The notes below the pieces were generated by a model that saw nothing but the letters and a program-made list of their open reading frames with translations, was not told where the DNA came from and did not search any database. DNA of 64,000 nucleotides from Klenkia brasiliensis (GTDB taxonomy: Bacteria; Actinomycetota; Actinomycetes; Mycobacteriales; Geodermatophilaceae). Numbering within the stretch: the stretch's first letter is position 1; each line of letters begins with the position of its first letter. Both the position numbers and the translations under genes were made by a program. Positions 3,585 through 64,000 of the stretch are shown piece by piece. The stretch spans positions 372,001 to 436,000 of the forward strand of contig NZ_FNCF01000004.1 in the NCBI RefSeq assembly GCF_900100695.1. The letters are read 5' to 3'.

Positions 3585-4625
3585 GTGCCTGTCCGCCCCC
3601 GCCCCGCCTCGTCCGCCACCCCGTCGGGGGCGCCGCGCCGCACCGGTCGCGGGCTGCTGGCCGTCGGTGCGGTCGGTCTCGCGCTGACGCTGCTGCCGGC
3701 CCCCGCGCAGGCGGCGCCCGGTCAGGCGAGCACCCCCGAGGAGGCCACGCAGCTCGTCGCCGACGCCACCCACCAGCTCGAGGTGGTCACCGAGCAGGTC
3801 AACGACGCGCAGGTCCAGCTCGCCGAGCAGCAGGCCGCCGCCGCTGCCGCCCAGCAGTCGGTGGCCGACGCGCAGGCCCAGCTGCAGAGCCTCGGCGCCC
3901 AGATGGACGAGGTCGCGGTCAGCGCCTACACCGGCAACCCGTCGGGCTTCGCCGCGCTGCTCACCAGCGCCTCGCCCGAGGACTTCCTCGCCCAGGTCAG
4001 CACCCTGGACCTCATCGCCGGCCACACCGACGACCTGCTCTCCCAGGTGTCGGCCGCGGCGCAGACCGCGACCGACGCCCAGGCCGCCGCCGACGCCGCA
4101 GCCACGCAGGCGCAGCAGACACTGGACCAGGTCACCGCCCAGCAGCAGGAGCTGCAGCAGCAGATCACCACCTACCAGGCGCAGTTCGCCGCGCTCAGCG
4201 CGCCGCAGCGGGCCGCGGTCGTCGAGGCCACCAGCGGGCCGGAGGTCACCCCGCCGGCCAGCGTGGTCGCCGACAGCGCCGCGGCGCAGACCGTCGTGGA
4301 CACCGCCATGGCCCAGCGCGGCGACCCCTACGTCTGGGGCGCGGGCGGGCCGGGCAGCTTCGACTGCTCGGGCCTGACCGCCTACGCCTACGCCGCCGCG
4401 GGCATCTCGCTGCCGCACTCCAGCGCCGCGCAGGCCCGGATGGGCTCCCCGGTGTCGCGCGCTGACCTGCAGCCCGGCGACCTCGTCTACTTCTACTCGC
4501 CGGTCAGCCACATCGGTATCTACATCGGCAACGGGATGATGGTGCACGCCCCCACCTCGGGCGACGTGGTCAAGGTGTCCAGCGTCGACATGTCCGGCTA
4601 CGCCGGGGCCCGGCGCCTGCTGTAG
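3585..4625 (+). CDS. Secreted NlpC/P60 endopeptidase with N-terminal coiled coil (RipA-like)
   Basis: 346 aa. A signal peptide (RRTGRGLLAVGAVGLALTLLPAPAQAA) is followed by about 190 residues of Ala/Gln-rich coiled coil and then an NlpC/P60 domain. Catalytic Cys261 is in SFDCSGLT, His309 in SHIGIYIG, and a third polar residue is His321 in MMVHAP. The family cuts D-Glu-meso-DAP bonds in peptidoglycan and acts in cell separation. The coiled coil probably inhibits or positions the enzyme, as in RipA. It is syntenic with Rv2190c. The start GTG 3585 has AGGAG 11 bases upstream, a slightly long gap. Confidence 0.92.
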   Translation: MPVRPRPASSATPSGAPRRTGRGLLAVGAVGLALTLLPAPAQAAPGQASTPEEATQLVADATHQLEVVTEQVNDAQVQLAEQQAAAAAAQQSVADAQAQLQSLGAQMDEVAVSAYTGNPSGFAALLTSASPEDFLAQVSTLDLIAGHTDDLLSQVSAAAQTATDAQAAADAAATQAQQTLDQVTAQQQELQQQITTYQAQFAALSAPQRAAVVEATSGPEVTPPASVVADSAAAQTVVDTAMAQRGDPYVWGAGGPGSFDCSGLTAYAYAAAGISLPHSSAAQARMGSPVSRADLQPGDLVYFYSPVSHIGIYIGNGMMVHAPTSGDVVKVSSVDMSGYAGARRLL

Positions 4626-4632
4626 CGGTGGT

Positions 4633-4638
4633 TAGGGT
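4633..4638 (+). promoter_or_regulatory. -10 TAGGGT, leaderless spacing
   Basis: TAGGGT ends 6 bases before GTG 4645, and no Shine-Dalgarno precedes that start. Confidence 0.55.
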
Positions 4639-4644
4639 CCGGGG

Positions 4645-5880
4645 GTGGGTCCACGTCGCCCCGCCCTGCTGGCGGCCCTGCTCCTCGGCCTGGCCCTCGT
4701 CGTCGTCCTCTGGCTGCGCATCCCCTGGGCGGCACCGCCGCAGGTGACCGACCCGACCGCCGGGCTGACGCCCGAGCAGGTCACCCGCGCCGACGCCTTC
4801 GCCGCCGCCGTCCGCCCCGCGTCGGTGGTCAACCTGCTGCTGGGGCTCGCCGTCAGCGGCGTGCTGGGCCTGACCCGGCTCGGTGCCCGCTGGGTCACCG
4901 CGGTGGCCCGGCCGCTGGGCGGTGGCTGGTTCTGGCAGGTCGTGCTGGGCACCCTGGTGGTCACCGTCGCCGGGCGGCTGGTGACCCTGCCGCTGTCGGC
5001 CCACGGCGAGGTGGTGCGGCACCGGTACGGGCTGTCCACCCGCAGCTGGCCGCTCTTCGCGCGCGACGTCGCGGTGGACACCGGCATCACCGCCGGGCTC
5101 ACCGCGCTCGGGCTGCTCCTGCTGGTGGCGCTGGCCCGGCGCGCACCGCGCACGTGGTGGGCCTGGGCGGGCGCGGGGGCGGCCGGGCTGGTGGTCGCCG
5201 GGTCGTTCCTCTACCCGGTGGTCATCGAGCCGGCCTTCAACGACTTCACCTCGCTGCCCGCCGGCCAGCTGCGCACCGACCTGCTCGCGCTGGCCGAGGA
5301 GAACGGCACGCCGGTGCAGGACGTGCTGGTGGCCGACGCCAGCCGCCGCACGACCGCGCTGAACGCCTACGTGTCCGGGTTCGGGTCGACCCGGCGCATC
5401 GTCGTCTACGACACCCTGCTGCAGCAGCTGCCCGACGACCAGGTCGAGTCCATCGCCGCGCACGAGCTCGGCCACGTGGCCACCGACGACGTGCTCACCG
5501 GCACGCTGGTCGGCGCGCTGGGGGCCGCGGCCGGCGTCGCCCTGCTGGGCTGGCTGATCGGCTCGGGGTCGCTGCTGCGCCGGGCCGGTGCGGCAGGGCC
5601 CGGCGACCCCCGCGCGGTGCCGCTGGTGCTGCTGCTGGTCGCGGTGGGGACGCTGGTGTCCACCCCGGTGCAGAACGGGGTGTCCCGGCAGCTCGAGGCC
5701 CGGGCCGACCAGCACGCCCTGGACCTCACCGGCGACCCGGACGCCTTCGCGGCCGTCATGCGCCGCCTCGCCGCGGCCAACCTCAACCAGCCCGACCCCC
5801 CGTCGGCCTGGCAGTGGTTCTTCGGCTCCCACCCGACCACCGCCCAGCGGGTGGCCGCCGCGCAGGGGTGGTCCCGCTGA
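4645..5880 (+). CDS. M48 family (Ste24-like) membrane zinc metalloprotease
   Basis: 411 aa. The protein has several membrane helices (residues about 8-25, 58-75, 90-115, 140-185, 285-330). The zinc motif is HELGH (His273, Glu274, His277), and the third ligand is Glu351 in LEARADQHALDL, as in CAAX-protease-like M48A enzymes. It ends in HPTTAQRV, typical of the family. The likely role is turnover of membrane proteins. The gene is leaderless by spacing (TAGGGT at 4633) and its 3' end overlaps the pimB start by 13 bases, so the two are co-translated. Confidence 0.9.
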   Translation: MGPRRPALLAALLLGLALVVVLWLRIPWAAPPQVTDPTAGLTPEQVTRADAFAAAVRPASVVNLLLGLAVSGVLGLTRLGARWVTAVARPLGGGWFWQVVLGTLVVTVAGRLVTLPLSAHGEVVRHRYGLSTRSWPLFARDVAVDTGITAGLTALGLLLLVALARRAPRTWWAWAGAGAAGLVVAGSFLYPVVIEPAFNDFTSLPAGQLRTDLLALAEENGTPVQDVLVADASRRTTALNAYVSGFGSTRRIVVYDTLLQQLPDDQVESIAAHELGHVATDDVLTGTLVGALGAAAGVALLGWLIGSGSLLRRAGAAGPGDPRAVPLVLLLVAVGTLVSTPVQNGVSRQLEARADQHALDLTGDPDAFAAVMRRLAAANLNQPDPPSAWQWFFGSHPTTAQRVAAAQGWSR

Positions 5881-57320: not shown

Positions 57321-58267
57321 CCGACCGAGACCGGGTGCCAGGTCCGCCAGCGCCCCGGCTTGAGCGCAGCGCAGGTCAGCAGCCGGGCGTCGGCCGACAG
57401 CCGGCTGTCCAGCACCACCGCGACGTCGCCGTCGGGCCCGCGCAGGTCGACCTCCCACCGCTCCGTGCCGTCGTCGGCCGCGCCTCCCGACCGCACCGAG
57501 AGCACCGGCAGGTCGGCCACGCCCAGCAGGCCCAGCTCGACCCGGGCGAACTGCTGCGCGGCCTGCGCCGGCGGCGTCAGCCCGGCCCGGCCGCGCAGAC
57601 CCTCGAGCAGCACCTCACCGCGCGCGTGCGCCTCGGCCAGCCCGCCGCCGTCCTCGGGCACCTGGCCGTAGAGGTGCCCGGTGGGCAGCACCAGCACGTT
57701 CGCGGCGAACCGGTCGCCGCCCAGGTGGCTGGTCTCCCAGACGTCCCCGGACAGCGTCCGGGCCAGCGGGCGGCCGCGCACCGCGCAGCAGGCGTCGTGC
57801 CCGCCGTGCGTGCAGACCAGGAAGGACGGCGCGTCGACCTGCACGCCGACCGAGCCGTCCAGCGGCACCTCGAGCAGCTCGGCGTCCCGGGTGCGCCGTG
57901 ACCACCGCACCCAGCCCTCGCGGACGTCGGCGACCGCCCACCGGCCCTGCGAGTCGGCCAGCTTCTCGCCGGGCCGGCGCACCATCTGGATCCGCAGGCC
58001 GGCCTCGCGGGCGCGCTGCGCCAGGCGGGGGGCGACGTCGGCGTCGAAGCGGGACTGCAGCAGGGCGTCGCGGCCCCACGGCCCGGGCTGCTCCACCAGG
58101 AGCCAGCGGCGGGCCGGGGGAGCGGTGGCCAGCGGGGAGTCACCGGCCAGCAGCGCCTGCACCGAGCAGCGGCCGGCGTCCAGCCGGCCGACGGGGCGGC
58201 GCCTCGGGTCGGGGTGCTGGCAGTACGGGTCCTCCGGCGCCCCGTCGGGCAGCTGTTCCGCGGTCAT
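57317..58267 (-). CDS. Sucraseferredoxin-like protein
   Basis: 316 aa. PF06999-type marks: VEQPGPWGRDALLQSRFD, SFLVCTHGGHDACCAVRGRPLARTL with Cys in CTHG and CC, and TSHLGGDRFAANVLVLPTGHLYG. A C-terminal region follows (VELGLLGVADLPVLSV). Members carry a thioredoxin-like [2Fe-2S] fold; their reaction is mostly unknown. ATG 58267 overlaps the cupin-4 stop (ATGA), so the two are an operon. Confidence 0.83.
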   Translation of the reverse strand: MTAEQLPDGAPEDPYCQHPDPRRRPVGRLDAGRCSVQALLAGDSPLATAPPARRWLLVEQPGPWGRDALLQSRFDADVAPRLAQRAREAGLRIQMVRRPGEKLADSQGRWAVADVREGWVRWSRRTRDAELLEVPLDGSVGVQVDAPSFLVCTHGGHDACCAVRGRPLARTLSGDVWETSHLGGDRFAANVLVLPTGHLYGQVPEDGGGLAEAHARGEVLLEGLRGRAGLTPPAQAAQQFARVELGLLGVADLPVLSVRSGGAADDGTERWEVDLRGPDGDVAVVLDSRLSADARLLTCAALKPGRWRTWHPVSVG

Positions 58268-59532
58268 CGGCTCCCATGGTGCACGGCTGCACCGGGCCGT
58301 GCGTCGGGGACGACGGCCACGGCCTCCACCACCAGCCGGCGGGCCAGCTCGACCTGCTCGTCGGCGCCCAGGCCGGGCAGGTCGCCCACCTTGAGCTCGC
58401 CCACGGCCAGCAGCTCGGCCAGCGCCGGGCGCTGGGCCGCGGGGAAGGTGCGGTGCTGCCGTCCGGTCACCAGCACGACCTGCTCGCCGACGGCGTCGCG
58501 CAGCTGCACCCGCAGCCGCGGGCGCACCCTTAGCACCGTGTCGGAGGACAGCGAGGCCGCGGCGGTGGACTGCGCCAGCGGGGCCACCGGCTCCGGGCGC
58601 ACCTGCGCCCAGGTCCGCGACCGCAGCCGGTCGGCCACCGCGGCCGGGTCGACCCGGTCCAGCGCGGCGTGCAGGCCCGCGATGACCGCGGCGACGTCGT
58701 CGGCGGTGCTGCGCGGGTCGGCCAGGTCGACACCCAGCGGCAGCGAGGTGCGCAGCGCGGGGTCGTCGACGGCGAGGGTGCGCACCAGGTCGAGCGCGGA
58801 CTCCACCGCGCTCCACCGGGTCACGTCGTGCACGCCGATGGTCAGGTGCGCGCTGATCTCGCCCAGGGCGCGCGCCGAGTGCAGGTAGCCCCGCGGCAGG
58901 TAGAGCGCGTCGCCGGGGCGCAGCACGGCGTCGATGACCGGTTCCTCAGCCGCACGGGCAGCCACCGCGTCGGCCCGCTCGCCCCAGGGCTGGGTGCGGA
59001 GGGGGTCGGTGAGCACCGGCTCGTGGATGGTCCAGTGCTTCTCGCCGGCGACCTGCAGGACGAAGACGTCGTGCACGTCGTAGTGCGGGGAGAAGCCCTG
59101 CGAGGACGGCGGGGTGATGTAGGCGTTGACCTGCGTGGGGTGGCCCAGCTCGGCGGCGAGCGCGTCGGCGAAGGCGATGAGCGGCGGCCAGAGGCGGTGC
59201 AGGCCCTGCAGCACCACCGTCGAGCCCTCGCTGAACAGCCGCAGGACGGCGTCGGAGGAGACCTGGTCGGCCACCTCGGCCCCCGCGCCGCCCGGGCCGG
59301 TGAAGCGCTTGGCGTCGACGACCTCGCCGTTGCGGGCGATGCGCAGGAAGGGGGTGCGCAGACCGCGGGTGCTCAGCAGCTCGTCGACGTCGGCCAGGGT
59401 GAGCAGGTCGGAGAAGTCCTGGCCCAGCTCGGCCGCGCTGGTCAGCAGCGGACGGCGGGCCCAGTACGCGACGGCGAACTCCGCCGGGTCGACGCCCACG
59501 CACCGGCGCAGGGCCGTTCCTCCGTGCTCCAC
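58264..59532 (-). CDS. JmjC/cupin-4 2-oxoglutarate oxygenase (ribosomal oxygenase-like)
   Basis: 422 aa. The metal site is HxD in FSPHYDVHDVFVLQVAGEKHW, with the second His in GDALYLPRGYLHSARA. The N-terminal VDPAEFAVAYWARRPLL and the C-terminal winged-helix-like part match the ROXA/YcfD and MINA53/NO66 families, which hydroxylate ribosomal proteins. GTG 59532 has AGGAGG 5 bases upstream. The target in actinobacteria is unknown. Confidence 0.86.
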   Translation of the reverse strand: MEHGGTALRRCVGVDPAEFAVAYWARRPLLTSAAELGQDFSDLLTLADVDELLSTRGLRTPFLRIARNGEVVDAKRFTGPGGAGAEVADQVSSDAVLRLFSEGSTVVLQGLHRLWPPLIAFADALAAELGHPTQVNAYITPPSSQGFSPHYDVHDVFVLQVAGEKHWTIHEPVLTDPLRTQPWGERADAVAARAAEEPVIDAVLRPGDALYLPRGYLHSARALGEISAHLTIGVHDVTRWSAVESALDLVRTLAVDDPALRTSLPLGVDLADPRSTADDVAAVIAGLHAALDRVDPAAVADRLRSRTWAQVRPEPVAPLAQSTAAASLSSDTVLRVRPRLRVQLRDAVGEQVVLVTGRQHRTFPAAQRPALAELLAVGELKVGDLPGLGADEQVELARRLVVEAVAVVPDARPGAAVHHGSR

Positions 59533-59621
59533 CTGTTCCTCCTCGTCCGCGGCGGGTGCCGGCCGACCCTGCCGTCCTCGTCGTGCCCGGAGCGGGCGCA
59601 CGTCGCCGCCCCGGTCGTGCC

Positions 59622-59665
59622 GAGGGCCGGGGGACCACCCGCGCTGGGATGGTGCCCCGGCCCTC
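59622..59665 (-). terminator. Hairpin downstream of the repeat protein gene
   Basis: GAGGGCCGGGG/CCCCGGCCCTC perfect 11-base arms (59622-59632, 59655-59665) with a 22-base loop, 15 bases after the stop of the minus-strand repeat-protein gene. Confidence 0.55.
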
Positions 59666-59680
59666 GCCGTGCTGCTCGGG

Positions 59681-59929
59681 TCAGGCCGAGCCGTCGGCCC
59701 CGCCGTCCTGCTGGCCCGGGGTGCCGCCACCGGCGCCGCTGTCCGCGGGGCCCTCGGCGCCGCCGTCCGCGCCGCCGTCCTGCTGGCCCGGGGTGCCCTC
59801 GCCGGCGCCGCTGTCCGCGGGGCCCTCGGCCGAGCCGTCCGCGCCGCCGTCGTGCTGACCCGGGGTGCCCTCGCCGGCACCGCTGTCGGCCGGACCCTCA
59901 ACGCTGGTCATGTCCTCGTCCTCGAACAC
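59681..59929 (-). CDS. Small acidic Gly-rich protein of three 24-residue repeats
   Basis: 82 aa. GTG 59929 is chosen because GGAGGA sits 6 bases upstream; ATG 59911 is an alternative. After VFEDEDMTSV come exactly three 24-residue units, each starting EGPADSGAG and ending DGGADG(S/G)A, with small changes at four sites. The whole is acidic, Gly/Ala-rich and probably disordered. The function is unknown. A matching 72-base repeat at 59684-59899 shows recent expansion, and a hairpin follows. Confidence 0.7.
   Translation of the reverse strand: MFEDEDMTSVEGPADSGAGEGTPGQHDGGADGSAEGPADSGAGEGTPGQQDGGADGGAEGPADSGAGGGTPGQQDGGADGSA
59684..59899. repeat. Three 72-base tandem repeats
   Basis: Three consecutive 72-base units encode the 24-residue repeats of the small protein and leave no partial unit before the stop. 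Copy differences are few (for example His/Gln at repeat position 16). Confidence 0.8.
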
Positions 59930-59974: not shown

Positions 59975-60086
59975 CCGGGGCCCTAGTACCGCGGTCCCGC
60001 CCGCGCTACACATGCCGAACGGCGTACGCGGAGGGACCTGCCCGTACCGGATTGGGATCCCCCGGTGCAGGGGTAGCGGGCGCTGC

Positions 60087-61052
60087 GTGCTCACCGAGGA
60101 CTGGTGCCCGCAGATCACCCGGACGGCTGCCGGTTTCACCGAGCTGGTCGCCTCGGGCTGGGCCCTGCCGTTGCCCGGACGAGGCTCCACCTCCCGGCGC
60201 TGGTCCGGCCTGACGGCGCTGGGGGCACGCGACCTGCCGCTGGCCCGCCTGGCCGAGGGCCACGCCGACGCGGTCGCCGTGCTGGCCGAGCTCGGCGGCC
60301 CGGACCCCGACCCCGGCGCGCGGCTGGGCGTGTGGGCCGCCGAGCCGCCCGACGGCCGGGTCACCGCCACCCGCACGGGCGGCGGCTGGACCCTGACCGG
60401 GACCAAGCGCTGGTGCTCCGGGGCGCGGGTGTGCACCGCGGCGCTGGTCACCGCGCACGCCGACGACGGCCGCCGGCTCTTCCTCGTCGACCTCGCCGAC
60501 CCGCGCGCGACCGCCGTCCCCGGTGCCTGGGCCGCGCCCGGGATGGCCGGCAGCGACACCGCCGACGTCCGGTTCGACGCCGTCCCCGCGCAGCCGGTCG
60601 GCGGCGTGCGGGGCTACCTCGACCGGCCGGGCTTCTGGCACGGCGGCATCGGCGTCGCCGCGGTCTGGGCCGGTGGCGCGCGGGCGGTGGCCGACCGGCT
60701 GGCCGCCGCCGTCGCGGCCGGGCCCGACCCGCTGCGGGACGCCGCCTGGGGCGCCGTCGACGTCGCGCTGTCCGCCCTCGACGCCGCGCTCGCGGTGGCC
60801 GCCGCCGAGGTGGACGCCGACCCGGTCGACCGGGCGGGCGCCGCTGCGGTGCGGGCGCAGCGGGTGCGCGGGCTGGCCGCCCGGACCGGGCTGGAGGTGC
60901 TGGCCACCACCGGCCGGGTGCTCGGCGCCGGCCCGGCCGCGCACGACGCGGCGCACGCCGCGCGCTGCGCCGACCTGGAGGTCTACCTGCGCCAGCACCA
61001 CGGCGAGCGGGACCTGGCCGCGCTCGCCGAGCCCCTGCGGGCCGCCCGGTGA
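60087..61052 (+). CDS. Acyl-CoA dehydrogenase-like flavoprotein (short form)
   Basis: 321 aa, shorter than the usual ACAD of about 380-400. The middle-domain region is LGVWAAEPPDGRVTATRTGGGWTLTGTKRWCSGARVCTAALVTA, and the helical C-terminus has AAWGAVDVALSALDAALAVAAAEVDADP. The N-terminal helical domain is reduced. The catalytic Glu region is not clear, so it may be an oxygenase-like or non-catalytic variant. It heads a four-gene chain with PIG-L, NodS-like and glycosyltransferase genes. GTG 60087 lacks a strong ribosome site. Confidence 0.78.
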   Translation: MLTEDWCPQITRTAAGFTELVASGWALPLPGRGSTSRRWSGLTALGARDLPLARLAEGHADAVAVLAELGGPDPDPGARLGVWAAEPPDGRVTATRTGGGWTLTGTKRWCSGARVCTAALVTAHADDGRRLFLVDLADPRATAVPGAWAAPGMAGSDTADVRFDAVPAQPVGGVRGYLDRPGFWHGGIGVAAVWAGGARAVADRLAAAVAAGPDPLRDAAWGAVDVALSALDAALAVAAAEVDADPVDRAGAAAVRAQRVRGLAARTGLEVLATTGRVLGAGPAAHDAAHAARCADLEVYLRQHHGERDLAALAEPLRAAR

Positions 61053-61783
61053 GCACCCCGGCGGCGGGTCACCGGCCCGGCGCGACGCCGGAGGAGGTCT
61101 GGGCGGCGCAGCGGCCGGCGTGGCCGGCGTGGCGGCGCGACCCGGGGTGGCGGCGGGTGGTCGTGTGCGCCGCGCACCCCGACGACGAGGTGCTCGGCGT
61201 CGGCGGCACGATGGCGCTGCTCGCCGCCGCCGGCGTGGACCTGGTGCACGTCGCGGTCACCGACGGGGAGGCCAGCCACCCCGGCAACCCGGTCCTCGGC
61301 CCGGCCGACCTCGCCGCGGCCCGGGAGCGGGAGTCCGGCGCCGCACTGGCCGCCCTCGGGGTGGCGCCGGTGGACGCCGTCCGGCTGCGGCTGCCCGACT
61401 CCGGGGTCGCCGAGCACGAGGCCGGGCTGACCGACGCCCTGGCACCCGTGCTGGCCGGGGCGGACCTGGTGCTCACCACCTGGACCGGGGACGGCCACCC
61501 CGACCACGAGGCGGTGGGCCGGGCCACCGTGGCCGCCGCGGGCGCACTCGGCGTGCCGGTCGCGCAGTACCCGGTGTGGGCCTGGCACTGGTCGCACCCC
61601 GGCGACCCCCGGTTGCCCTGGGACCGCGCCCGGGCGGTCGCGCTGCCGCCGGGGGTGCGGGACGCCAAGCGCGCCGCGGTCGCCTGCTTCACCACGCAGG
61701 TGCACCCGCTCGGGCCCGACCCGGCGGTGCTGCCCCCGGAGTTCCTGGCCCACGCCGACCGCGACCACGAGGTGCTCTGGTGA
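61049..61783 (+). CDS. PIG-L (LmbE-like) deacetylase
   Basis: 244 aa. The zinc motif is AAHPDDEVLGVGGT and the second part HPDHEAVGRATV, as in GlcNAc-PI and MshB-type N-deacetylases. The substrate is probably an N-acetylated sugar or sugar conjugate. GTG 61049 overlaps the ACAD-like stop and the methyltransferase starts inside its stop, both by 4 bases. Confidence 0.88.
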   Translation: MSTPAAGHRPGATPEEVWAAQRPAWPAWRRDPGWRRVVVCAAHPDDEVLGVGGTMALLAAAGVDLVHVAVTDGEASHPGNPVLGPADLAAARERESGAALAALGVAPVDAVRLRLPDSGVAEHEAGLTDALAPVLAGADLVLTTWTGDGHPDHEAVGRATVAAAGALGVPVAQYPVWAWHWSHPGDPRLPWDRARAVALPPGVRDAKRAAVACFTTQVHPLGPDPAVLPPEFLAHADRDHEVLW

Positions 61784-62379
61784 CCCTGCCCCCCACGTAC
61801 TTCGACGGCCTCTACGCCGACGCCGAGGACCCCTGGTCGATGCGCACCCGCTGGTACGAGCGCCGCAAGTACGCCCTCACCGCCGCCGCGCTGCCCCGGG
61901 AGCGCTACCGCGACGGGCTCGAGGTGGGCTGCTCGGTGGGGGAGCTGACCGCCGTCCTGGCCCCCCGCTGCGACCGGTTCGCCGCCTGGGACACCAGCGC
62001 CGCCGCGGTGGCCCGCGCCGCCGCACGCAACCCCGGTGTCGCCGTCGAGCAGCGGACCGCGCCGGTCGACCCGCTGCCGCCGGTGGACCTCCTGGTGCTC
62101 TCGGAGGTCCTCTACTACCTGTCACCGGCCGACCTCGCCGACCTGGTCGACCAGGTGCGGACGGCGGTCCGGCCCGGAGGCACCCTGCTCGCGGTGCACT
62201 GGCGGCACCCGGTGGCCGACTACCCGCAGACCGGCGACGCGGTGCAGGGGGCGCTGCGCGCCGGGCTGGACTGGCCGCGGGTGGCCACCCACGCCGAACC
62301 CGACCTGCTGCTGGACTGCTGGGTGCGCTCGGCCGACCCCCGTGATGCCTCGGTCGCCGCGGCGGAGGACCTCTGGTGA
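61780..62379 (+). CDS. NodS-like SAM methyltransferase
   Basis: 199 aa. YFDGLYADAEDPWSMRTRWYERRKYALTAAAL is the N-terminal pattern of NodS (N-methyltransferase of deacetylated Nod factors) and relatives. Motif I is LEVGCSVGELTAVLAPRCDRFAAWDTS, and motif II DLLVLSEVLYYLSP. It is likely to N-methylate the amine made by the PIG-L enzyme before it. It overlaps both neighbours by 4 bases. Confidence 0.86.
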   Translation: MTLPPTYFDGLYADAEDPWSMRTRWYERRKYALTAAALPRERYRDGLEVGCSVGELTAVLAPRCDRFAAWDTSAAAVARAAARNPGVAVEQRTAPVDPLPPVDLLVLSEVLYYLSPADLADLVDQVRTAVRPGGTLLAVHWRHPVADYPQTGDAVQGALRAGLDWPRVATHAEPDLLLDCWVRSADPRDASVAAAEDLW

Positions 62380-63095
62380 GCGGACCCGACCTGCTCGGGG
62401 TGGTGGTGCCCGCCCGCGACGAGGCCGCCCTGCTCCCCGGGTGCCTGGCCGCGCTGCGCCGGGCCGCCGCCCACCCCGATCTCGCCGGTGTCCCGGTGCT
62501 GCTGGTGGTGGCCACCGACCGGTGCACCGACGCCACGCCCGACCTCGCCCGCGCCGGCGGCGCGGTCGTCGTGGACTCCCGGGGCGACACCGTCGGGGAC
62601 GCCCGGCACGCCGGCGCGCTGCGGGTGCTGGCCGAGGCCGCGCACCGGGGCGTGCCGCCGCGGCGGGTCTGGCTGGCCGCCACCGACGCCGACAGCCGGG
62701 TGCGGGGGGACTGGCTGGCCCTGCACCGGGCGGCGGCGGAGTCCGGGGTGGACGCGGTGCTGGGCCTGGTCCGCGTGGCCGACTGGGCCGGGCACCCCCC
62801 GCACGTGGCCGCGGCCTTCACCCGGGCCTACGACGCGTGGCGGGCCGGCGGGCCGGGCGCGCTGCACCCGCACGTGCACGGGGCCAACCTCGGCGTGCGC
62901 GGGGACGCCTACCTCGCCGTGGGCGGGTTCCCGCCGCTGGCGGTGTCCGAGGACGCCGCGCTGGCCGGCGCGCTGGCCCTGGCCGGCCGGGTGCTGCTGC
63001 GCACCCCGCTCTCGCCGGTGACCACGTCGGCCCGCCGCCACCCCCGCGCGCCGGGCGGGTTCGGGGCGGACCTGGACCGCCTCGCGGACGGCTGA
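62376..63095 (+). CDS. GT2 family glycosyltransferase
   Basis: 239 aa. It has GVVVPARDEAALLPGCLAALRRA, VVATDRCTDATPDLARA, the DxD-type region LAATDADSRV, and HVHGANLGVRGDAYLAVGGFPPLAVSEDAAL with the ED base. No membrane helix is seen, so it is probably soluble. It ends the four-gene cassette, with GTG 62376 in the methyltransferase stop. It may build or extend the sugar modified by the other genes. Confidence 0.86.
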   Translation: MSGPDLLGVVVPARDEAALLPGCLAALRRAAAHPDLAGVPVLLVVATDRCTDATPDLARAGGAVVVDSRGDTVGDARHAGALRVLAEAAHRGVPPRRVWLAATDADSRVRGDWLALHRAAAESGVDAVLGLVRVADWAGHPPHVAAAFTRAYDAWRAGGPGALHPHVHGANLGVRGDAYLAVGGFPPLAVSEDAALAGALALAGRVLLRTPLSPVTTSARRHPRAPGGFGADLDRLADG

Positions 63096-63100
63096 GCGGC

Positions 63101-63123
63101 TAGGCTGTCGAACGCGTGTTCGA
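63101..63123 (+). promoter_or_regulatory. dinB promoter with LexA box
   Basis: TAGGCT (63101-63106) is a -10. The LexA box TCGAAC-GCGT-GTTCGA (63108-63123) follows after one base and covers the expected transcription start, an ideal position for SOS repression. Confidence 0.85.
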
Positions 63124-63136
63124 CGGGAGGAGGCCG

Positions 63137-64000
63137 GTGGAGCGGGCCGAGGGCTGCCGGGTGCTGCACGTGGACATGGACGCCTTCTTCGCCAGCGTCG
63201 AGGTCCGACGCGACCCCTCGCTGGCCGGCCGGCCGGTCATCGTGGGCGGCGCCGGCGGCCGCGGCGTGGTCACCTCGGCCACCTACGAGGCCCGGGCCTT
63301 CGGGGTGCACAGCGCGATGCCCACAGCCCGCGCGCTGCGGCTGTGCCCCGACGCGGTGGTCGTCCCCGGGGACATGGCGCTGTACTCCGAGGTCTCCCGC
63401 GGGGTGATGGCCGTGTTCCGCAGCATCACCCCGCTGGTCGAGCCGCTGTCGGTGGACGAGGCCTTCCTCGAGGTGTCCGGCGCCACCCGGCGGCTGGGCG
63501 ACGCGCTGGCCGTGGCCGAGCTGGTCAAGGCCCGCGTCTTCGACGAGCAGGGCATCACCTGCTCGGTCGGGGTGGCTCCCACCAAGTTCGTGGCCAAGCT
63601 GGCCTCCACCCGCAGCAAGCCCGACGGCCTGCTCGTCGTCCGCCCGCACGAGGTGGTCGGCTTCCTGCACCCGCTGCCGGTCGGTGCGCTGTGGGGCGTG
63701 GGCCCGCGCACCGAGGAGGCCCTGCACGCCGTGGGGCTGCGCACGGTGGGCCAGCTCGCGCACGCGCCGGTCGAGCTGCTGCAGCAGGCGGTGGGTCCGG
63801 GCAGCGGCGCGCACCTGCGCGAGCTGTCCTGGGGCCGCGACCCGCGGCACGTCGTCCCCGACGAGCGGGAGAAGTCCACCGGTGCGGAGGAGACCTTCGG
63901 CCGCGACGTCGACGACCCCCGGGTGATCCACCGCGAGCTGCTGCACCTGTCGGAGCGGGTGGCCGGGCGGCTGCGCGGCGCCGGGCACCAGGCCCGCACG
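63137..64000 (+). CDS. dinB: DNA polymerase IV (DinB), Y-family (partial, C-terminus off the window)
   Basis: 288 visible codons from GTG 63137, with GGAGG 6 bases upstream. GTG 63116 is also in frame but lies inside the LexA box. Catalytic motifs are HVDMDAFFASVE with the first Asp and LSVDEAFLEVS with the Asp-Glu pair; TSATYEARAFGVHSAMP and SVGVAPTKFVAKLASTRSKPDG are also standard. It performs error-prone translesion synthesis under SOS control. The frame is open to the right edge. Confidence 0.94.
   Translation, partial: MERAEGCRVLHVDMDAFFASVEVRRDPSLAGRPVIVGGAGGRGVVTSATYEARAFGVHSAMPTARALRLCPDAVVVPGDMALYSEVSRGVMAVFRSITPLVEPLSVDEAFLEVSGATRRLGDALAVAELVKARVFDEQGITCSVGVAPTKFVAKLASTRSKPDGLLVVRPHEVVGFLHPLPVGALWGVGPRTEEALHAVGLRTVGQLAHAPVELLQQAVGPGSGAHLRELSWGRDPRHVVPDEREKSTGAEETFGRDVDDPRVIHRELLHLSERVAGRLRGAGHQART

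Follow-up and report, generated by a model that had tools for sequence, protein, structure and literature searches.

A stretch of 64,000 nucleotides from Klenkia brasiliensis (Geodermatophilaceae; genome size 4.45 Mb; contig NZ_FNCF01000004.1, positions 372,001 to 436,000 of the forward strand), hereafter the window, carries at 60087-63095 on its forward strand four genes encoding an acyl-CoA dehydrogenase (ACAD)-like flavoprotein, a PIG-L/LmbE deacetylase of carbohydrate esterase family 14 (CE14), a NodS-like methyltransferase predicted to use S-adenosyl methionine (SAM), and a family 2 glycosyltransferase (GT2) (Table 1). Our preferred interpretation, which we hold tentatively, is that they form a conserved, stress-linked biosynthetic operon that may modify an amino-sugar glycoside. 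Successive genes share four bases (GTGA; three overlaps in all), each gene after the first having a GTG start that overlaps the preceding stop. A first-pass annotation, made from the sequence alone, had taken the four genes for one unit because of these overlaps; all four open reading frames (ORFs) are indeed present in this place and on this strand, confirming that the cassette is real.

The four genes are kept together in many relatives. A scan of an 84,980-species collection with the methyltransferase only, in which we kept the best 80 of 84 confirmed loci, revealed all four families together on one strand, in one of two orders, in 72 of the 80; conservation of gene order, set beforehand as a check of the first-pass proposal, was thus borne out. 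The window's order (ACAD first) is found in 44 of these complete loci and a GT2-first order in 28, the latter in Mycobacterium, Rhodococcus, and related names. Among the other eight, four are truncated by a nearby contig end (L009, L044, L061, and L073, the last without PIG-L between its partial ACAD and the methyltransferase), one has ACAD and PIG-L each split over two frames (L016), two lack the GT2 (L087 and L088), and one is a solitary methyltransferase with full flanks (L030). A second search used PIG-L as its anchor and covered 298 genomes from the same order; of the places listed we picked 20 (13 scoring over 200 bits and seven at ~140-150 bits), a sample that overlaps the first one (at least three contigs are apparently common). 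All four genes occur in 11 of the 13 strong matches; one of the other two has no GT2 and an ACAD at the contig start, and the other is a solitary second PIG-L in a genome with the cassette elsewhere. Three of the seven weaker matches have all four genes in other orders and four are solitary (solitary PIG-L loci: L173, L180, L183, L184, and L185). In 25 of the 80 methyltransferase-anchored loci, PIG-L and methyltransferase make up a single ORF with no stop between them, which suggests that these two enzymes act consecutively. No fifth gene common across lineages appeared among the 60 largest clusters of neighboring ORFs, which are lineage-specific.

Plasmids extend the distribution of the cassette to Pseudomonadota, Deinococcota, and one cyanobacterium. 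Tblastn against plasmids gave matches in 69 records for the methyltransferase and 33 for the ACAD, of which we fetched 16 records, from Acinetobacter (2), Deinococcus (3), Comamonas, Pandoraea, Kitasatospora, Rubrobacter, Novosphingobium, Sphingobium, Cupriavidus, Paraburkholderia, Bradyrhizobium, Nostoc, and Roseomonas; three stretches without annotation (L090, L096, and L165) were read with hidden Markov models. The arrangement varies among them: the Paraburkholderia plasmid has only methyltransferase and GT2, the PIG-L of Cupriavidus lies ~4 kb off on the other strand, D. radiodurans has a helicase gene between PIG-L and methyltransferase and no GT2 seen in the stretch, no GT2 was found within the stretch fetched from Roseomonas, and Bradyrhizobium, Nostoc, and two Deinococcus records encode the glycosyltransferase on the opposite strand. 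Deinococcus also has ACAD fusions: in three records the ACAD domain makes up the C-terminal half of a fusion protein, and the N-terminal half resembles the family 1 glycosyl hydrolase encoded next to the L161 cassette (phmmer E 7e-15). This N-terminal domain, an extra Rubrobacter membrane protein, and a Sphingobium gene showed no mutual relation.

The deacetylase retains its metal site. For this and the other three families we aligned length-filtered proteins, leaving out the fused PIG-Ls. All 55 aligned PIG-Ls match Pfam PIG-L (E up to 0.001) and have invariant H43, D45, D46, H150, and H153; from MshB, we take H43, D45, D46, and H153 to provide the His, Asp, and His metal ligands and the catalytic Asp, so that the zinc-ligand conservation on which the first-pass proposal depended is present. 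The HPDD...HxDH motif occurs in 76 of the 77 loci with a PIG-L match (73 by script and three by eye, since the pattern omitted Ala), including all 25 fusions, the exception being the split L016. Cassette PIG-Ls share this motif and the fold family with the LmbE/PIG-L deacetylases MshB, BshB, and diacetylchitobiose deacetylase, and their profile matches TT1542 and diacetylchitobiose deacetylase. They differ from the named enzymes in a stretch, YPVWxWHW, that is nearly invariant in the actinobacterial set, and in remaining under every named NCBIfam cut-off: the window PIG-L scores 51.6 of 182.5 bits with BshB1 (its best match), 48.1 of 195 with BshB2, 21.6 of 224 with MshB, and 26.3 of 277 with Mca.

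Many of the top NodS-family matches in the phylum showed ACAD and methyltransferase and no PIG-L in the short stretches returned. We fetched 20 places as longer stretches, mostly chosen for the missing PIG-L, so that the counts do not reflect frequencies; one family (f19) supplies all of them except L133 (f10) and L145 (f30). In 16 of these 20 chosen loci, all Rubrobacter-type, the genes run on one strand as carbohydrate esterase family 4 (CE4) deacetylase, ACAD-like protein, methyltransferase, flavin adenine dinucleotide (FAD) reductase, and GT2; of the other four, one stops at a contig end ahead of the GT2, two consist of CE4 and methyltransferase alone, and one is of the PIG-L type (L145). 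The CE4 protein of the Rubrobacter indicoceani plasmid copy (L095) belongs to Pfam Polysacc_deac_1, with NodB as its best NCBIfam match (113.4 bits, below the cut-off of 240), and its reductase is most similar to oxygenase-system ferredoxin reductases in NCBIfam and to rubredoxin and putidaredoxin reductases in PDB. Since two unrelated deacetylase families, CE14 and CE4, fill one slot, there is good indirect evidence that this slot performs a deacetylation, as the first-pass annotation had supposed, and the substrate is probably an N-acetylated sugar, given what CE4 and CE14 enzymes do. When a unit has persisted across Actinomycetota, Pseudomonadota, Deinococcota, and one cyanobacterium, while undergoing fusions and the exchange of one deacetylase fold for another, it usually signals a real pathway. 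Two further observations concern the composition of these loci. In L138 and L146, a CE4 deacetylase adjoins a NodS-like methyltransferase and no ACAD, reductase, or GT2 was found nearby; CE4 and methyltransferase are a possible two-gene core. In L178, a ferredoxin-reductase-like gene matched in two frames (3816-4962) lies directly upstream of a PIG-L-type cassette.

All 44 aligned methyltransferases match Pfam NodS. Their profile ranks first in PDB a structure named only methyltransferase (4ISC, E 1.1e-61 over 164 amino acids), then NodS (3OFJ, E 1.9e-26) and phosphoethanolamine N-methyltransferases; NodS is therefore the closest characterized solved relative, in keeping with the label given at first pass. 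The cassette enzymes have an HWRHP stretch lacking from NodS, and that of the window reaches 53.6 of the 300 bits of the NodS equivalog in NCBIfam. In the GT2, the DxD and ED motifs (D104-x-D106 and E192-D193) are invariant in 63/63 aligned proteins. Judging from these matches, the cassette resembles the deacetylate-then-N-methylate part of Nod-factor synthesis, yet is not a member of it: deacetylase, NodS-type methyltransferase, and GT2 follow the same logic as NodB, NodS, and NodC, whereas the window deacetylase is a CE14 enzyme, an ACAD-like flavoprotein is added, and the neighbors differ. Considering the cassette only, neither NodA nor NodC is among the four genes, as expected from the first-pass idea of Nod-like chemistry without chitin synthase or acyltransferase; NodC is also missing from the NCBIfam list of the GT2 up to E 0.1, a list for which the presence of a NodC model in the library was unchecked. 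We found no description of the four-gene unit in the open-access papers searched; excerpts of two desiccation papers (PMC12029717 and PMC13130816) show no deacetylase, and those of an LmbE review (PMC4101496) contain no methyltransferase or operon. One candidate, PSPTO_4989, a PIG-L of the P. syringae lipopolysaccharide core cluster, was set aside, as in the excerpts of PMC8005017 it lies beside a GNAT and an RfaB-type glycosyltransferase, a different set.

The ACAD-like protein departs from ordinary dehydrogenases at the catalytic Glu. Its alignment has 97 rows (69 actinobacterial, 10 plasmid-borne, and 18 chosen-loci proteins), at most 96 of them distinct since L095 and L142 hold the same protein, and was compared with five ordinary ACAD ORFs of the K. 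brasiliensis genome, drawn from 12 loci (30 family matches in the genome). The column of the catalytic Glu of medium-chain acyl-CoA dehydrogenase (MCAD) type holds Gln in 97/97 rows, with a register uncertain by one residue because of a one-residue gap just before it; one column further on, Glu and Asp appear in one row each, and the column after that has no Glu. Four of the five ordinary ACADs have Glu at the MCAD-type column and the fifth has it at the isovaleryl-CoA dehydrogenase (IVD)-type site, where the ACAD-like rows have Gly (79) or Asp (18). Because Gln replaces the catalytic Glu in every row, the protein is, by its sequence, not an ordinary dehydrogenase, and the first-pass suggestion that it could oxidize the carbon skeleton, taken as the role of such an enzyme, was not supported. 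Acyl-CoA_dh_M matches 66 of 69 members, Acyl-CoA_dh_1 six, and the C-terminal domain Acyl-CoA_dh_2 none at E 0.01, this last domain being over the cut-off in the Deinococcus fusion and slightly under it in Bradyrhizobium and Roseomonas. In PDB, the top match of the family profile is 5GJ7/5Z8T (43 bits; named acyl-CoA dehydrogenase type 2); methanesulfinate monooxygenase comes lower (35 bits), and nitrososynthases are weaker still. ACAD-fold flavin monooxygenases (DszC, methanesulfinate monooxygenase, and nitrososynthases such as DnmZ) are thus among its best matches; like the ACAD-like protein, they have no MCAD-type catalytic Glu, and DszC shares with it a KxxCSGA stretch. The similarity is only local (DszC E 1.1e-9, nitrososynthase 8.9e-5), true dehydrogenases being nearly equal, and the cassette protein is ~75-95 residues shorter than the 5GJ7 and DszC chains. 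Given the missing base, the DszC-like KxxCSGA, and the Rubrobacter-type reductase, we propose with moderate confidence that it is a flavin oxygenase. Among the chosen loci, the Asp-bearing ones are L129-L137, L139-L144, L147, and L148, the PIG-L-type L145 being the exception, as deduced from its motif.

In the order of steps that we presume, the GT2 would join an N-acetylamino sugar to an acceptor, after which the PIG-L, or the NodB-like CE4 in Rubrobacter-type bacteria, would use a metal-activated water to remove the acyl group and leave a free amine. The NodS-like enzyme would methylate this amine with SAM, presumably on nitrogen rather than oxygen, and the ACAD-like flavoprotein, devoid of the dehydrogenase base, may oxygenate the product with reduced flavin. 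The end product would be an N-methylated, oxidized amino-sugar conjugate, presumably made under stress or in stationary phase. If such a product is under general-stress control, bacteria would have a protectant or an envelope modification of a new class, and proteins now labeled acyl-CoA dehydrogenase and NodS would gain a function. A bolder version of this proposal, which we regard as a long shot, is a widespread, as yet undescribed stress protectant: a small glycoside, its glucosamine-type amine unmasked, N-methylated, and then N-oxygenated by the base-less ACAD-fold flavoprotein, would yield a redox-active sugar, an N-methyl-hydroxylamine or a nitrone, able to scavenge radicals when cells are dry or starved.

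The link with stress comes from neighboring genes and upstream regions. Genes of a stress set (catalase, trehalose, CsbD, Dps, ferritin-like/DUF892, PRC-barrel, and PA2169 genes) lie near the cassette in nine of 13 annotated plasmid records. They account for 10 of 82 cassette neighbors versus six of 259 control genes, taken from one 49-kb stretch on each of six of these 13 plasmids (one-sided Fisher P 9e-4, too favorable a value as the list was drawn up after viewing the neighbors). Seven actinobacterial loci share a Dps-like ORF, the one tested matching Ferritin with 70 bits (cut-off 24.5), and a CsbD-like ORF, named by eye, is present in 12 mycobacterial loci, the one tested reaching only 26 of 40 bits. 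A GGGTAG is found ~10 bases before the start in eight of 10 aligned Geodermatophilaceae upstream regions, the window included, these sequences being related. Considering the loci with usable starts (22 GT2-first and 47 ACAD-first), six of the 22 GT2-first loci have a SigF-type site no more than 150 bases from the first gene (background 1.4%, P 5e-7). Some actinobacterial copies of the cassette are thus predicted to have a SigF-like promoter. In Mycobacterium smegmatis, the GT2 gene MSMEG_1097 is strongly SigF-dependent according to excerpts of PMC4694148; it is also named in excerpts of PMC5445863 and PMC7174638, neither of which names its neighbor genes. MSMEG_1097 is possibly the opening gene of a GT2-first cassette, an identity that we treat as a lead only.

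Several observations, in addition to the post hoc stress list, weigh against a stress-linked amino-sugar operon. Four of the 13 annotated records (D. radiodurans, D. radiophilus, Bradyrhizobium, and Roseomonas) have no stress-set gene in the stretch. The region upstream of the window cassette fails both strict and relaxed SigF patterns, its -35-like element being deviant; only three of the 47 ACAD-first actinobacterial loci have a SigF-type site (background 0.6%, P 0.003); the relaxed SigF motif is weak evidence, since it turns up almost as often on the reverse strand (21 versus 14 of 75); and none of four alphaproteobacterial loci has an EcfG-type site before the ACAD. Concerning the enzymes, the family profile of the ACAD-like protein places DszC (41 bits) and cyclohexanecarboxyl-CoA dehydrogenase (40 bits) level, and the window protein by itself has glutaryl-CoA dehydrogenases as its best PDB matches (E 4e-6, DszC-type only 7e-4). 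In the Rubrobacter-type ACADs, Asp occupies the IVD-type site (17 of 18 chosen loci), and acid-base chemistry is possible there. Finally, the methyltransferase and the CE4 deacetylase stay under the NodS and NodB cut-offs (53.6 of 300 and 113 of 240), and a mycobacterial protein listed as NodS-like performs O-methylation according to excerpts of PMC8730385, so that the NodS-like label is no proof of N-methylation.

Less probable than the amino-sugar operon, though deserving serious attention, is a modification of envelope glycoconjugates, in which the cassette would decorate a cell-surface glycan or glycolipid with a free or methylated amine and an extra sugar rather than make a soluble protectant. 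The Sphingobium cassette lies in a run with three more genes annotated as glycosyltransferases (one of them without Pfam match), that of Deinococcus AJ005 precedes genes for a family 1 glycosyltransferase and a UDP-galactopyranose mutase, and the GT2 has EpsD and further polysaccharide enzymes among its NCBIfam relatives, none of which reaches the cut-off. Against it, the 60 largest neighbor clusters beyond the four genes are lineage-specific, flippases, polymerases, and ligases not having been searched for. We consider it improbable that the ACAD-like protein is, as annotated publicly, an acyl-CoA or acyl-ACP dehydrogenase and that the product bears an unsaturated acyl group. The Pfam ACAD domains and the best single-sequence PDB match, glutaryl-CoA dehydrogenase, agree with this function, but the catalytic Glu and its alternative site are replaced as described above. 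That match and the near tie between DszC and a dehydrogenase raise the probability of the dehydrogenase and lower that of the amino-sugar operon. A glycosyltransferase combined with a PIG-L is also the logic of mycothiol and bacillithiol synthesis, and BshB1 is the best NCBIfam match of the PIG-L. Nonetheless, a variant low-molecular-weight thiol pathway, with PIG-L in the role of MshB or BshB, seems very unlikely: all thiol-pathway cut-offs are far from reached, the 60 clusters contain no further gene, for instance a cysteine ligase, that accompanies the four across lineages, and MshA and BshA are glycosyltransferases of family 4 and not 2. As for chance neighbors with unrelated functions, which the solitary methyltransferase and PIG-Ls could bring to mind, they are refuted because of the 72/80 conservation, the same four members in alternative orders, and the 25 fusions, in several phyla.

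Table 1. Features of the cassette region (window positions) and fused ACAD genes of Deinococcus (positions in each locus).
Feature	Position	Strand	Remarks
ACAD-like flavoprotein	60087-61052	+	GTG start, 321 aa; Pfam Acyl-CoA_dh_M only (39.5 bits, above curated cut-off); Gln at catalytic Glu position
PIG-L/LmbE (CE14) deacetylase	61049-61783	+	244 aa; Pfam PIG-L 95.8 bits (curated cut-off 28.2)
NodS-like SAM methyltransferase	61780-62379	+	199 aa; Pfam NodS 48.2 bits (above curated cut-off)
GT2	62376-63095	+	239 aa; Pfam barely over cut-off: Glyco_trans_2_3 27.2 (cut-off 27), Glycos_transf_2 24.1 (cut-off 23.3)
Promoter-like element, SigF/SigB-like	60049-60075 (-35-like 60049-60053, -10-like 60071-60075)	+	GGATT-N17-GGGTA; 11 bases before GTG start
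Y-family DNA polymerase (IMS)	63116-64000, open	+	ORF begins 20 bases past GT2 stop
JmjC_2/Cupin_8 protein	58264-59688	-	upstream of cassette, opposite strand
Deinococcus ACAD fusion, L161	3898-6258		
Deinococcus ACAD fusion, L162	4042-6288		
Deinococcus ACAD fusion, L091	2193-4529		

The gene that follows the cassette in the window, encoding a Y-family DNA polymerase, might be co-transcribed with it. A relative of this polymerase lies 3' of the cassette in 10 close loci, at ~100 bases or less in nine and at ~1 kb in L015; none follows the cassette in L018, another close locus. Just upstream of the cassette, at 59684-59899, the window contains a 72-base tandem repeat in three copies (88% matches), beside or inside the start of the opposite-strand JmjC/cupin gene.

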